Source: an uncultured Desulfosoma sp. (GTDB lineage Bacteria > Desulfobacterota > Syntrophobacteria > Syntrophobacterales > DSM-9756). Taken from it: a DNA stretch of 64,000 bases. Below, in pieces: positions 46,974 to 52,833 of the stretch (its first letter is position 1; each line of letters opens with the position of its first letter). The stretch lies in assembly GCA_937960435.1 (NCBI GenBank), contig CALGPN010000003.1, positions 62,001-126,000 on the forward strand, in the 5' to 3' direction. The position numbers were made by a program, and so were the translations under genes. The notes under the pieces are model-generated. The model was not told the origin of the DNA. It searched no databases and saw nothing but the letters and a program-made list of their open reading frames with translations.

Positions 46974-48131
46974 CTAGGCCCGGATTTCCTCCTTGACGCC
47001 GATGGCGACCTTGTAAAGGATAGCCATGATCAAGAATCCGGTGGCCCAAACCCCCAGAGTGATGGCCAGCTCAGGAACCGTCGGGATGTAAGGGGTCACT
47101 TTATCGAACACGTTGGGAATAAAGCCGGTGACCACCAAGCCGACGCCTTTTTCGAGATAAAGCCCAAAGAAAACGGTGATGCAGGCGATCTTCAGAAGCT
47201 TCTCGTTGTTTCGGAACTGGGGCGGGATGAGCAAGATCAGGGCCGTCACCGAAAGGATCACCGAAAGCCACATAAACGGCACCAGTTCGGCGTGTCCTTC
47301 ATAGCCGGCAAACTGGTAAATGAAACCGTGCATATGCCCGGGAATCTTGCTGTAGAACGCCGTAAAAACTTCCAGGAGCAGGAAGAAAACGCTGGTGATC
47401 ATGGCATAGGTGACAATCTTGGAAAGCTTCTCGATGGCCGCCGTCCCCGGATCGAAGTTGGTGCGCTTGCGAATGAGGAAGCTCAACAGGATCAAAAGGG
47501 ACGGACCGGAGGCGAAGGCCGAAGCGAGAAAGCGGGCGGCCATGATGGCCGTGAGCCAGAAGTGACGGCCCGGAAGACCGGCGTACAAAAAGGCCGTGAC
47601 CGTGTGAATGCTCACAGCCCAGGGGATCGAAACGTAAATCAGGGGTTTGACCCATTTAGGCGGGGGCATTTCCTTGCGTTCCGCGCTGAGCACCGTCCAG
47701 CCGATGACGGCATTCAGGAACAAATAGCCGTTCAAGACCACCATGTCCCAAAAGAGAATGGAGTTCGGTGTCGGGTGAAGCAAAACGTTTAGGAGGCGCA
47801 TGGGTTGGCCGAGATCCACGACGATGAACAAAAGACACATGGTGACGGCACTGACCGCCAGGAACTCCCCGAGGATGGTGATGCGGCCGAATTCCTTCAC
47901 ATGGTGCAGATAATACGGGAGAACCACCATCACGGCCGAAGCGGCGACCCCGACGAGGAAGGTGAACTGGGCGATGTAAAAGCCCCAGGACACATCGCGG
48001 CTCATGCCGGTTATTCTTAGGCCTTGGTTGAGCTGGAGCATGAAGCAGGCAAAGCCGATCCCCGAAAGGATCGCCAAGCCCAGCAGGAGGCTCCAGTACT
48101 TCTGTCCGCCTTTGAGTGCTTTTTCAAGCAT
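46974..48131 (-). CDS. dsrP: Sulfite reduction complex membrane subunit DsrP
   Basis: A 385-residue NrfD-family protein with about ten membrane segments (first at about 13-35). It is the menaquinone-interacting subunit of DsrMKJOP, which links the quinone pool to DsrC trisulfide reduction. GAGGGG precedes the ATG. It is the last of five dsr genes and ends 44 bases before the palindromic terminator. Confidence 0.92.
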   Translation of the reverse strand: MLEKALKGGQKYWSLLLGLAILSGIGFACFMLQLNQGLRITGMSRDVSWGFYIAQFTFLVGVAASAVMVVLPYYLHHVKEFGRITILGEFLAVSAVTMCLLFIVVDLGQPMRLLNVLLHPTPNSILFWDMVVLNGYLFLNAVIGWTVLSAERKEMPPPKWVKPLIYVSIPWAVSIHTVTAFLYAGLPGRHFWLTAIMAARFLASAFASGPSLLILLSFLIRKRTNFDPGTAAIEKLSKIVTYAMITSVFFLLLEVFTAFYSKIPGHMHGFIYQFAGYEGHAELVPFMWLSVILSVTALILLIPPQFRNNEKLLKIACITVFFGLYLEKGVGLVVTGFIPNVFDKVTPYIPTVPELAITLGVWATGFLIMAILYKVAIGVKEEIRA

Positions 48132-48143
48132 GTCGTCCCCTCA

Positions 48144-48935
48144 TCAGATCAGGTAGTAAACATTGGGCCCTGTGCCCAACTCGATCTTGCGGCGCAAACT
48201 GTAATGGCCGGAGAGAATCTTGCGCACTTCGGAGTTGGGATTGGTGATGTCGCCGAAAATCAGGGCCTTGACCTTGCACGCTTCCACACACGCCGGTTGC
48301 AGTCCTTCATCGATTCGCTCGTAGCAGAAGGTGCATTTTTCCACGACGCCTTTGCGGCGCGTCGGGTATGTCATGTTGATGTCTTCGGGTTTGAGATAGG
48401 GTCGAGGGTCTCCCCAGTTGAAGCTTCGAGCGCCGTAAGGGCAGCCCGCCATGCAGTATCGGCAGCCGATGCACCGATGGAAGTCCATCATGACGATGCC
48501 GTCCGGTTTGCGTTTGAACGTGGCTTTGGTGGGGCACACGCGCACACAGGGCGGGTTGCTGCAGTGGTTGCACAAGAGCATGAACGGGTTTTCCTTCACT
48601 TTCTCAGGAGCGTATTCGTGAGCCTGATCGGGAAAGGCGTGTTTGTACTCTTCCAGCCAGATCCATTTGATTTCCCGTTTTTGGTCGGGGATGTCCGGCA
48701 CGTTATGGATTTTGTGGCACGCAAGGATGCAGTCTCGGCATTGACGCTTGTCCTGCTGTTCCCAGCATTTTTTCATATCCACGATCATGGCCCACTGGGC
48801 CCCTTTCAAGGCCTTGGGGTCAGGTTTATATCGAGGCCCTTTCTCTTGGGCGAGCGCCTGAAAGACAGGCAGAGCACTCAGCCCCAAGACGGAAATCCCG
48901 CCTATCTTCAGGAATTCACGGCGATCCTTTTCCAT
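48144..48935 (-). CDS. dsrO: Sulfite reduction complex periplasmic ferredoxin DsrO
   Basis: 263 residues. Tat signal DRREFLKIGGISVLG, so it works in the periplasm. Cys groups CRDCILAC, CNHCSNPPCVRVC, CIGCRYCMAGC and CTFCYERIDEGLQPACVEAC fit several [4Fe-4S] clusters. It connects DsrP with the cytochrome DsrJ. ATG 48935 overlaps the dsrJ stop (TGATG) and has AAGGAG upstream. Confidence 0.93.
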   Translation of the reverse strand: MEKDRREFLKIGGISVLGLSALPVFQALAQEKGPRYKPDPKALKGAQWAMIVDMKKCWEQQDKRQCRDCILACHKIHNVPDIPDQKREIKWIWLEEYKHAFPDQAHEYAPEKVKENPFMLLCNHCSNPPCVRVCPTKATFKRKPDGIVMMDFHRCIGCRYCMAGCPYGARSFNWGDPRPYLKPEDINMTYPTRRKGVVEKCTFCYERIDEGLQPACVEACKVKALIFGDITNPNSEVRKILSGHYSLRRKIELGTGPNVYYLI

Positions 48936-49312
48936 CACATGTTCTCCTTAGGCTCGATGTGACACTGCCAGCAATAAGGCTTCACCCCCGCGTAGTTGTG
49001 GCACTGGTCGCAGAATTTGACCTTGCTGGAATGGCATTTCATGCAGGAATTCTGGAGGCTCATGAAATGCTCCTTGCCGTCGGGCCCCACCCACAGTCGG
49101 TTGGCGTCGCGCACTACCAGATCCCGCCATTGGTTGAGGAGCACCATGTGCTCGGTTTTCATATATGCCGTGTCCATCACACAGACCTTCTCGGTCTTGG
49201 GCAGCTCAGGCTTGGGTGCCGGCGCCGCCTTCCCCATGTTGGACCACAAGGGGAAGGTGAACAGCACGACAAAAATCAAGATTCCCGGGACGATCTTCTT
49301 TGCGTCATACAT
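48935..49312 (-). CDS. dsrJ: Sulfite reduction complex triheme cytochrome c DsrJ
   Basis: 125 residues with an uncleaved-looking N-terminal membrane anchor (about 8-27). Three CXXCH haem sites are in the C-terminal third: CMKCH, CDQCH and CWQCH. DsrJ is the periplasmic haem subunit of DsrMKJOP. ATG 49312 overlaps the dsrK stop by eight bases; the frame upstream of it belongs to dsrK. Confidence 0.93.
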   Translation of the reverse strand: MYDAKKIVPGILIFVVLFTFPLWSNMGKAAPAPKPELPKTEKVCVMDTAYMKTEHMVLLNQWRDLVVRDANRLWVGPDGKEHFMSLQNSCMKCHSSKVKFCDQCHNYAGVKPYCWQCHIEPKENM

Positions 49313-50930
49313 CTTCAGCCTCCTCCTCTTCTTCCATCCCCGGCAAAGGTTCGTATCGGAGGTCCGTGGTGCGTTTCTTTTCACCCTTCATGACCAGGGC
49401 GTTGCCGACAAGCTCATGAAGTCCGGTGACGTTCACCCCCGGAACCCAGTAGTTCATCAATGGCGGCAGGACGGCGCGGTCGATGGCGCAAATGCACGCC
49501 AGCATGTTCACACCGTACTTTTCATGGACATACCGCACGGCGTTGGCTCGAGGCAACCCGCCGCGCATCCGCATTTCCATGAACTCATCGGTGTTCAGGC
49601 CCGATCCGGAGCCACAGCAGAACGTCTTTTCGCGGATGGTGTTCTCGGGCATGTCGTAGAAATGGTTGCACACGGCCTTGAGCACGTATCGCGGCTCTTC
49701 AAAGAATCCCATGGCTCGTGAGGGGTTGCACGAGTCGTGGAAGGTCACAATCTTGTTGTCGTTTCGGCTGGGATCCAGATTGAGTTTGCCGTGCCGGATA
49801 AGGTCCGCCGTAAATTCGGCGATATGAACCATCTTGGTGCTTTTGGCGTTTTCGAACACCGTGCCGGTGATGGGGGATTTGGGCACTTCAAGGAAATCCG
49901 CCGGGCCGTTCATGGTGTCCATGTACTGGTTGATGACACGCCACATGTGGCCGCATTCGCCGCCGAGGAGCCATTTCACCTTGAGGCGCTTGGCTTCCGC
50001 GTACATTTTGGCGTTCAGGCGCTTCATCATTTCATGGGAGGTGAAAAGCCCGAAATTGCCGCCTTCCGAGGCGTACGTGCTCCACGTGTAGTCCAACCCG
50101 ATTTCATGGAAGAGCATCATATAGCCCATGAGGGTGTACGTGCCGGGATCGGCGAAGACGTCCCCTGAAGGGGTGATAAAGAGCACTTCGGCGCCCTTGC
50201 GGTTGAAAGTGGGTTCCACCCGCACCCCTGTGACCGCCTCGATTTCGTCCACAAAGAACATGATCATGTCTTTGAAGGCATGAGGCTGGATGCCCAGGTG
50301 GTTGCCGTTCATGTAGCAGTTGGCCACGGGTCCCATGATCCAGTCGATGCCGCAGCCCAGCTCGTTCAACAGTTCGCGGCCCATCATGGTGATTTCGGCC
50401 GTGTCGATGCCGTATGGGCAAAACACGGAGCATCGCCGACACTCGGTGCATTGGTAATAGTAGTAGAACCATTCCTTGATGATCTGTTCCGTCAATGCGC
50501 GGGCCCCGGCGTACTTGCTGAAAATCTTGCCGCTTCCGGTAAAGTATTTGCGGTAAATGGATCGGATCAGTTCCGCGCGCAGCACGGGCATGTTCTTGGG
50601 ATCCCCTGAGCCGATGAAGTAATGGCATTTGTCGGCACAGGCCCCGCAGCGCACGCAAATATCCATAAAAAGCTTGAAGGATCGGAACTTGTTGAGCCGG
50701 TCCTCCATCCCTTTGAGGGTGATGTCTTTCCAATCGTCGGGCAGCTTCCAATCTTCATCCGCGGGGTTCCACTCACGCGGGTTGGGCATCCCCACAACGT
50801 CCAAGTTTTTCGCCTTAGCGCCGTAACAGAAAGTGCCGGGCCGAAACTCGGGGGTCGTTTCGGTCCACGGCCTCTGCGGCGGCCGATGGTCCACCTTTCC
50901 AAGTTCACTGGGTTTCGGGACGGTAGCCAT
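49305..50930 (-). CDS. dsrK: Sulfite reduction complex HdrD-like subunit DsrK
   Basis: 541 residues, cytosolic face. Two [4Fe-4S] motifs, CVRCGACADKCHY and CTECRRCSVFCPYG, are followed by two CCG-type segments (HDSCNPSR and FCCGSGSG) that form the unusual catalytic cluster related to heterodisulfide reductase. It is thought to reduce the DsrC trisulfide. The acidic C-terminus (EEEEEAEDV) is unremarkable. GAAGGAG precedes the ATG; it starts two bases after dsrM ends. Confidence 0.95.
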   Translation of the reverse strand: MATVPKPSELGKVDHRPPQRPWTETTPEFRPGTFCYGAKAKNLDVVGMPNPREWNPADEDWKLPDDWKDITLKGMEDRLNKFRSFKLFMDICVRCGACADKCHYFIGSGDPKNMPVLRAELIRSIYRKYFTGSGKIFSKYAGARALTEQIIKEWFYYYYQCTECRRCSVFCPYGIDTAEITMMGRELLNELGCGIDWIMGPVANCYMNGNHLGIQPHAFKDMIMFFVDEIEAVTGVRVEPTFNRKGAEVLFITPSGDVFADPGTYTLMGYMMLFHEIGLDYTWSTYASEGGNFGLFTSHEMMKRLNAKMYAEAKRLKVKWLLGGECGHMWRVINQYMDTMNGPADFLEVPKSPITGTVFENAKSTKMVHIAEFTADLIRHGKLNLDPSRNDNKIVTFHDSCNPSRAMGFFEEPRYVLKAVCNHFYDMPENTIREKTFCCGSGSGLNTDEFMEMRMRGGLPRANAVRYVHEKYGVNMLACICAIDRAVLPPLMNYWVPGVNVTGLHELVGNALVMKGEKKRTTDLRYEPLPGMEEEEEAEDV

Positions 50931-50932
50931 GT

Positions 50933-51937
50933 CTACTCCTTCTTTTCCACTGGGAGACCAGCTTCAATCATTTTTTCCCTGAACTCGTCTTCATACTCTT
51001 CATAAGTATGGACTTTGACGGGGTAGTTCCACGGATTGATATGGCGCACCATGCGACTGTTGTTGGGAAGATTCCGCGTCGGACTCAGGAAGACTCCGGC
51101 CATGTGCACCAATTTGCTGAACGGAAAATAAGCGAACAGCACACTGACAAGGAATAGGTGAATATAAAAAAGGACGCCGATCCCTTTCGGGACTACGGGA
51201 TGGAAGGTGGCCAGCCCGAAGGTCAGTTCTTTCACGCCCACGATGTCGACTTTGAAGACGTACCGCATGAGCAGACCCGTCGCGGTGATGGCGAAGATGA
51301 GAAAAAGAGGGAAATAGTCTGAAGGGAGGGAAATGTATTTGAGTTGTGGAATGCTTACCCGGCGAAGGAAAAGATAAGTGACGCCGGCCAGCAAGGCCAG
51401 CCCGGAAATATAAAGCCTGGGCAGGCCTACTTCGAGAAAGCCGTCGACGCTTTCCAAAAGGGTGACCAGGGGCGTGACCGGTTCGGTGAAGAACCGCAGA
51501 TGCCGCAAGAAGACCACAAGAAAGCTGTAGTGAAAAACAATGGCCCCCAGCCACAGCCATTTGGCGGAGGCGTACCGGATTTTGGGGCCGTCGTAGAATT
51601 CAAGCCGCGTGTTGCGGAAAAGGGACCTGAACAGCAACACTTCGAGGATCATGCGCAGGACCACCCCTTTGGTGTCGGAGGGGTTGTCCAGATTGTCCGC
51701 CTTGATCCATGGAAAGCTCTTCTGCTGTCCGCACGTGGTCGGGATGCGGAACGGCACCGGAGACCGGGCCCATCGTACCACGCGCGCCACAATCCCCACG
51801 AAGAACACGACGACGGCCGCATAGGGGATGATCACGCCGAAAAGGGATGTCATCCCGGCCGTGACGCCGATCAGTGGGAGGCACACGAGGATCCCGACGG
51901 CGACAAGGGAAAAAACCATAGATTGTGATGCATTCAT
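50933..51937 (-). CDS. dsrM: Sulfite reduction complex cytochrome b subunit DsrM
   Basis: 334 residues with six or so hydrophobic segments, NarI-like. Membrane His residues such as in WLGAIVFHYSFLVV and YIHLFLVSVLFAY are candidates for haem b ligation. It passes electrons from menaquinol to DsrK. ATG 51937 is preceded by GAGGTGGGG. The RsbRD-type gene lies 33 bases upstream. Confidence 0.93.
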   Translation of the reverse strand: MNASQSMVFSLVAVGILVCLPLIGVTAGMTSLFGVIIPYAAVVVFFVGIVARVVRWARSPVPFRIPTTCGQQKSFPWIKADNLDNPSDTKGVVLRMILEVLLFRSLFRNTRLEFYDGPKIRYASAKWLWLGAIVFHYSFLVVFLRHLRFFTEPVTPLVTLLESVDGFLEVGLPRLYISGLALLAGVTYLFLRRVSIPQLKYISLPSDYFPLFLIFAITATGLLMRYVFKVDIVGVKELTFGLATFHPVVPKGIGVLFYIHLFLVSVLFAYFPFSKLVHMAGVFLSPTRNLPNNSRMVRHINPWNYPVKVHTYEEYEDEFREKMIEAGLPVEKKE

Positions 51938-51970
51938 AACCACCCCACCTCGTTTTGGTTAATAAAAGTT

Positions 51971-52594: not shown

Positions 52595-52612
52595 TTGTGA
52601 AGTATCTCACTA
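52595..52612. promoter_or_regulatory. Rex-like operator over the dsr promoter
   Basis: TTGTGAA-GTAT-CTCACTA matches the Rex consensus TTGTGAA-N4-TTCACAA at 12 of 14 defined positions. It overlaps the -10 element and the expected start site, where an NADH-responsive repressor would block transcription. No rex gene is in the window, so the assignment is a prediction. Confidence 0.5.
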
Positions 52613-52637
52613 TAAATGGCGCCAAAATCTGTGTCAA
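52609..52637 (-). promoter_or_regulatory. Sigma-70 promoter of the RsbRD-dsrMKJOP operon
   Basis: On the minus strand a perfect TTGACA (52637-52632) and TATAGT (52614-52609) are spaced by 17 bases. The start should be near 52602, leaving a leader of about 92 bases. The -35 also lies within an imperfect repeat TGTCA-GCGCT-TGACA. Confidence 0.8.
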
Positions 52638-52833
52638 GCGCTGACAAGCAAAGCGGAAAAGCCGCCACCGCGAATGCCGCCGGTCCCTTGAAGCCGAAGC
52701 CTTCCGGCGGGCCAAACGATCGACGCGATTATAGAAACGGCCTTTTCTCAGGGTCAAGAACTTTCGGGAGCTCCTTCGGCTTGCGTGTGAAAGAGGGCGC
52801 GAAGTCACAGGATGCCTAGGGATCGCTGTCTTC

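Follow-up and report, generated by a model that had tools for sequence, protein, structure and literature searches.

The element that overlaps the promoter P1 of the RsbRD-dsrMKJOP genes in the window (the whole DNA stretch of 64,000 nucleotides that was analysed) is very probably an operator of the redox repressor Rex, extending over the end of the -10 hexamer and over the transcription start. The first-pass annotation had proposed a Rex-like operator at this place from the sequence itself, and the results of our analysis support this reading by the presence of a canonical rex gene in the genome, by kindred sites upstream of qmoA and dsrD, and by the in-place conservation of the element in all eight genomes of the family. 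For the lineage as a whole we consider it likely, if with less assurance, that Rex serves as the redox switch of sat-aprBA, qmoABC, dsrD-dsrAB, and dsrMKJOP, with operators located at or just after the -10 hexamers, and that the -10 hexamer of dsrMKJOP, in which base 5 is always G, shares bases with the operator.

The near-ideal sigma-70 promoter that had been described here was found on the minus strand, where the two hexamers of P1 are separated by a spacer of 17 nucleotides and agree with the consensus in 11 of 12 bases (Table 1). Reading of the sequence and counting of mismatches likewise bore out the claim of a Rex-consensus match over the -10 hexamer and the start, as 12 of the 14 defined bases of TTGTGAA-N4-TTCACAA are present in the 18-mer. 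The operator comprises one intact half, TTCACAA, while the second, GTGA, has its bases in common with the -10 hexamer of P1, of which bases 3-6, i.e., the last four, are overlapped together with the expected start. A protein bound in this position would be able to block transcription, and the same layout is seen in relatives, among them Desulfacinum infernum and Desulfacinum hydrothermale (L220 and L221). About 100 bp upstream of P1 there is a second promoter-like site, P2, with no Rex-type site. Since P2 is conserved without such a site, Rex may govern only a part of dsr transcription; possibly, P2 allows a bypass of Rex or gives rise to a separate small transcript. No small RNA was found at P1, and no Rfam family matches the region, which is weak evidence only.

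Table 1. Promoter elements and genes of the RsbRD-dsrMKJOP region, in window positions
Feature	Position	Strand	Remarks
Operator, Rex-type (putative)	52595-52612	.	TTGTGAAGTATCTCACTA on the plus strand, TAGTGAGATACTTCACAA on the minus strand
-35 hexamer of P1, TTGACA	52632-52637	-	found in 8/8 family members
-10 hexamer of P1, TATAGT	52609-52614	-	base 5 is G, common to the operator half-site
Transcription start of P1 (predicted)	about 52602	-	placed by promoter geometry, ~7 nt after the -10 hexamer, within the operator
Promoter-like site P2, TTGACC-N18-TATAAT	52728-52757	-	kept in 6/8 family members
RsbRD_N-domain protein, 179 aa	51971-52510	-	first gene of the transcript; Pfam PF14361
dsrM	50933-51943	-	NF038037, 559.6 bits
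dsrK	49305-50930	-	NF045796, 757.2 bits
dsrJ	48935-49384	-	NF038038, 171.3 bits; listed reading frame, the actual start being probably more internal
dsrO	48144-48938	-	NF045797, 308.6 bits
dsrP	46974-48131	-	NF045798, 488.3 bits

The promoter had been ascribed to dsrMKJOP. The genes dsrM, dsrK, dsrJ, dsrO, and dsrP do lie downstream of it, each above the cut-off of its NCBIfam model, but the first gene of the transcript is not dsrM but the one encoding the RsbRD_N-domain protein. Homologues of this protein are encoded in 52 of the 59 genomes of the relatives set. Of the 30 larger loci that were checked, 29 have the DsrM gene beside the RsbRD_N gene.

The first-pass annotation had made its reading depend on a rex gene, and the genome does encode a canonical Rex (contig G000:C5), with the DNA-binding domain PF06971 at positions 89297-89440 (78 bits) and a score of 310.7 bits with the equivalog model NF003993, the cut-off of which is 217. 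The best match of the product in the PDB is Rex of entry 5zz5. Its recognition region, QIRKDLAYFGEFGVRGVGY, which we take to hold the DNA-touching residues, and its Rossmann glycine motif, VGLGNIGSS, align with 5zz5 and 3ikv. The gene is located downstream of atpB-atpE-like frames (atp names assigned by eye), and its own upstream region contains ATGTGAAGAGCGGCACAA. A motif of the form GTGAA-N5-KCAC is present upstream of rex in 25 of 30 loci (the own locus and 29 others, with 27 further listed matches left out), as compared to 0.06 expected from shuffling, and the distance between these sites and the start codon, ~40 to 120 nt, would fit autoregulation. The position of this motif upstream of rex suggests that it is the autoregulatory Rex motif of the clade.

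By itself, the match of the dsr site to the textbook consensus is not significant beyond chance. In the window, a scan with up to two mismatches gave one match, with 0.20 expected per window and at least one match in 19 of 100 shuffles, and with up to three mismatches it gave 3 matches vs. 2.33 expected. Throughout the genome, up to two mismatches are found in 7 places, of which the six others, insofar as they were read, are located in open reading frames, and up to three mismatches yield 81 matches vs. 51 in the reversed control, so that the scanning of the own genome with the textbook consensus is of little use. The stricter palindrome TTGTGMA-N4-TKCACAA with one mismatch shows a modest excess (16 vs. 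6; 15 rex genomes among the 19 searched). It is the comparison, i.e., the rex gene, the matrix, and the conservation, that makes the site convincing. An independent test was provided by a symmetric matrix trained on the 25 rex-upstream sites, none of which is a dsr site. With this matrix, the dsr site reaches 15.8 bits, the top score in the window, while scores of at least 15.8 bits occur ~10 times per 3 Mb of random sequence from a Markov model with the dinucleotide composition of the window, i.e., ~0.001 times per 300-bp upstream region. The bare core GTGAA-N5-KCAC has 15 and 24 strand matches in the own genome vs. 7 and 6 in the control; the sites of dsr, qmo, rex, and dsrD are among them, and of the other matches that were read (26 loci read), most are in long reading frames or are low-scoring.

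A search for the motif at the other sulfate-respiration promoters of the genome, which had been proposed as a check, gave positive results for qmoA and dsrD-dsrAB and a weaker pair of sites at sat, whereas aprB has no such site. The genes sat, aprB, aprA, and qmoABC form one co-directional cluster (qmo and aprA names assigned partly by eye). Upstream of qmoA, GGGTGAAGAATCTCACAA directly follows an extended -10 hexamer; it is aligned in seven of seven family genomes, in five of which the upstream sites score at least 10 bits. Upstream of dsrD, GAGTGAATAAGTTCACTT is located downstream of a TTGACA/TATAGA promoter, and GTGAA-N4-TTCAC precedes dsrD in 17 of 19 genomes, a count from which four further loci with a start not at the expected place were dropped; in the 11 aligned sequences this site follows a TTGACA promoter. 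In the case of sat, a weaker repeat covers the -35 hexamer and another weaker one follows the -10 hexamer, and the sat sites of the own genome score below 10 bits with the rex-trained matrix. No Rex-type site was found in the aprB upstream region in any of the seven genomes; aprB follows sat and precedes qmoABC. Little was found in the ~450 bp upstream of dsrA, and the site is located upstream of dsrD instead. The dsrD gene (PF08679; locus L103, 1098-1334) is itself upstream of dsrA, while in Desulfovibrio it is presumably downstream of dsrB.

Among relatives, 29 of the 52 regions of 300 bp preceding the RsbRD gene contain a site of at least 10 bits (three matches were left out, one of them weak and two truncated where the contig ends). 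The corresponding frequencies are 3.8% after shuffling and 7.5% for 300-bp pieces drawn at random from these loci, a control in which some pieces contain true sites. By family (f1, f2, etc. are labels of the tool used), such sites are present in 8/8 regions of f1, to which the window belongs, 4/4 of f2, 3/3 of f6, 12/27 of f3, 2/6 of f5, and 0/4 of f4, f7, and f10 together. In the alignment of the eight f1 sequences, TTGACA, TAnnGTG, and TTCACAA are in register and invariant or nearly so, while most flanks diverge. Base 5 of the -10 hexamer is G, the base that the operator half-site requires, in all 24 promoters of the P1 layout, which were selected by TTCACAA, a -35 match, and A at base 2, with base 5 left free, and of which six come from three f6 genomes with tandem promoters. 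The sat promoters, in which the operator lies clear of the -10 hexamer, are different: 14 out of 29 could be parsed, by a pattern that leaned towards A, and 13 of these 14 have TATAAT. This difference is why we read the -10 hexamer of the dsr promoter as sharing bases with a putative operator half-site.

The three f6 loci (L056, L064, and L065) have two tandem TTGACA promoters before the RsbRD gene; a separate TTCACAA operator accompanies each of the two, with equal spacing from the -10 hexamer. In six f5 loci (L024, L028, L031, L045, L046, and L049) there is another conserved stretch, around TAGAAATAAGTTTCACAAAGT, a little after the -10 hexamer, in which only one operator half is recognisable.

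The site is not universal among dsrM upstream regions. Several relatives that do have rex are without it, namely in 8 of the 11 such regions of genus g13 and, among other f3 genomes, in G011, G013, G015, G017, G022, and G031, which score under 10 bits at dsrM, although G013 and G015 retain TTCACAA at the same place. The dsrM loci of Nitrospirota, Moorella, and most Desulfobacterales are without the site (15 of 80 reach at least 10 bits vs. 11 in coding controls). In the genomes without a detected rex, none of four upstream regions (three genomes) contains the site vs. 29 of 48 in the others (Fisher p 0.03, a value based on small numbers that ignores kinship and incomplete assemblies), yet in one genome in which rex was not found (G035) there are Rex-like sites elsewhere. 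The co-occurrence of rex and the site is weak.

The most serious competitor for the ownership of the dsr site is a regulator of the CRP/FNR family such as HcpR, although we consider it improbable. According to PMC545781, an earlier prediction had made HcpR of Desulfovibrio a repressor of sat and apsAB that acts through sites over their -10 hexamers with the consensus TTGTGAnnnnnnTCACAA (for sat and apsAB see also PMC1274295). The palindrome read by this regulator, TGTGA-N6-TCACA, has the same geometry as the dsr site and lies similarly over the -10 hexamer, and the sites of HcpR1 and Rex have been called identical (PMC5701242). Moreover, CRP-family genes are present in all eight family genomes searched. 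However, the sole CRP-family protein of the present genome over the Pfam cut-off (two matches are under it) has GTIPETLSR in its recognition helix, with Pro at the position of Arg180, a specificity position at which it differs from HcpR, and the same Pro occurs in all seven helices parsed from the family genomes, the own one included. In PMC545781, the reading of TGTGA is tied to Arg180, and that of an FNR-like TTGAC site to Ser or Pro. By this published rule, the CRP-family protein is predicted to bind an FNR-like TTGAC site, which argues for Rex as the owner of the palindrome. The fact that the palindrome is kept upstream of rex itself points in the same direction, and the CRP/HcpR explanation appears weakened.

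Still less likely is the explanation that TTCACAA belongs to the promoter itself or to the initially transcribed sequence, with a role in start choice, promoter escape, or the RNA 5' end, and is no repressor site at all. This half is indeed more constant than the other one, and in f5 genomes TTCACAA occurs ~20 nt after the -10 hexamer, as part of TAGAAATAAGTTTCACAA, and lacks a good partner half. Nevertheless, the GTG half is kept too, despite the preference of -10 hexamers for A at base 5, and the palindrome recurs at other distances from the -10 hexamer upstream of qmoA and dsrD, as well as before rex. The lack of an Rfam family in the region speaks, if weakly, against a function in RNA. That the dsr site is a chance match to a degenerate consensus, as 0.20 expected matches per window and the location in open reading frames of those other genomic sites with up to two mismatches that were read might suggest, is hardly credible, as it is contradicted by the in-register conservation in 8/8 f1 and 3/3 f6 genomes and by recurrence at functionally linked promoters.

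Rex-like sites were also observed elsewhere. Genes of TauE/SafE-type transporters in G004, G007, and G001 (loci L174, L175, and L176) have a strong Rex-like site upstream, TCGTGAAGGATTGCACAA and similar, which in L175 is located directly after the -10-like TTAAAAT; the Pfam match to TauE/SafE is based on the L176 gene only. The search with the stricter palindrome also pointed to a TauE-type transporter. In Desulfovibrio, the nitrate-resistance genes identified along with rex include one of TauE (PMC4001038). In the own genome, GTGAATGGGTTCAC occurs twice, 122 bp apart (G000:C10:8833 and 8955; L205 and L206), with low matrix scores, downstream of a frame that, judged by eye, resembles cytochrome bd oxidase subunit II. 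In L177 and L183 (G002 and G001), TTGTTAAGAAATGCACAA, or a sequence closely related to its complement, precedes the gene of an MFS transporter, which looks by eye like one of the oxalate/formate antiporter type.

The repression of sat by Rex and its relief by NADH are established in Desulfovibrio vulgaris. In strain Hildenborough (DVU_0916), Rex acts via a binding site known from the mutant strain IR1and2, and high NADH relieves the repression (PMC7531388, citing Christensen 2015). A rex deletion is also available in this species (PMC7531388, PMC4001038). That system resembles the one proposed here in the Rex site at a sulfate-reduction promoter with release at high NADH, and its site mutant is named for two repeats, just as sat of the present genome has two. 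In Desulfovibrio, Rnf and many sulfate-reduction genes have been described as co-regulated by Rex (PMC4215793, citing Ravcheev 2012), and this regulon is similarly one of Rex over sulfate-reduction genes. Unlike in the case of D. vulgaris sat, the target here is RsbRD-dsrMKJOP of a Desulfacinum relative (Desulfacinum infernum belongs to the class Syntrophobacteria), the site is one asymmetric repeat fused to the -10 hexamer, and our evidence is that of sequence. Features that would be distinctive of the present system are thus the other class, the pathway-wide reach, and the operator fused to the -10 hexamer. Our literature search found no mention of a Rex site at dsrMKJOP, by which absence from print is not claimed.

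In the mechanism that we propose, NAD+-bound Rex would occupy the operator when NADH is scarce and would block RNA polymerase, whereas a rise in NADH would cause Rex to release the operator, and the membrane complex would be made. The binding of Rex, the repression, the release by NADH, and the shares of P1 and P2 in transcription are what we infer from the nucleotide patterns. Rex probably also controls qmoABC, dsrD-dsrAB, and its own gene, as well as sat via the weaker sites, and most of the sulfate respiration pathway would then respond to the NADH/NAD+ ratio. How the levels of sulfate-respiration enzymes are naturally set is poorly known, and the species in which direct control by Rex has been demonstrated is a single one, with sat as the target. 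Should the proposed control hold, the NADH/NAD+ ratio would set most of the pathway at once in the sulfate reducers of this lineage, and the reach of Rex would include DsrMKJOP, a complex with a debated electron route.
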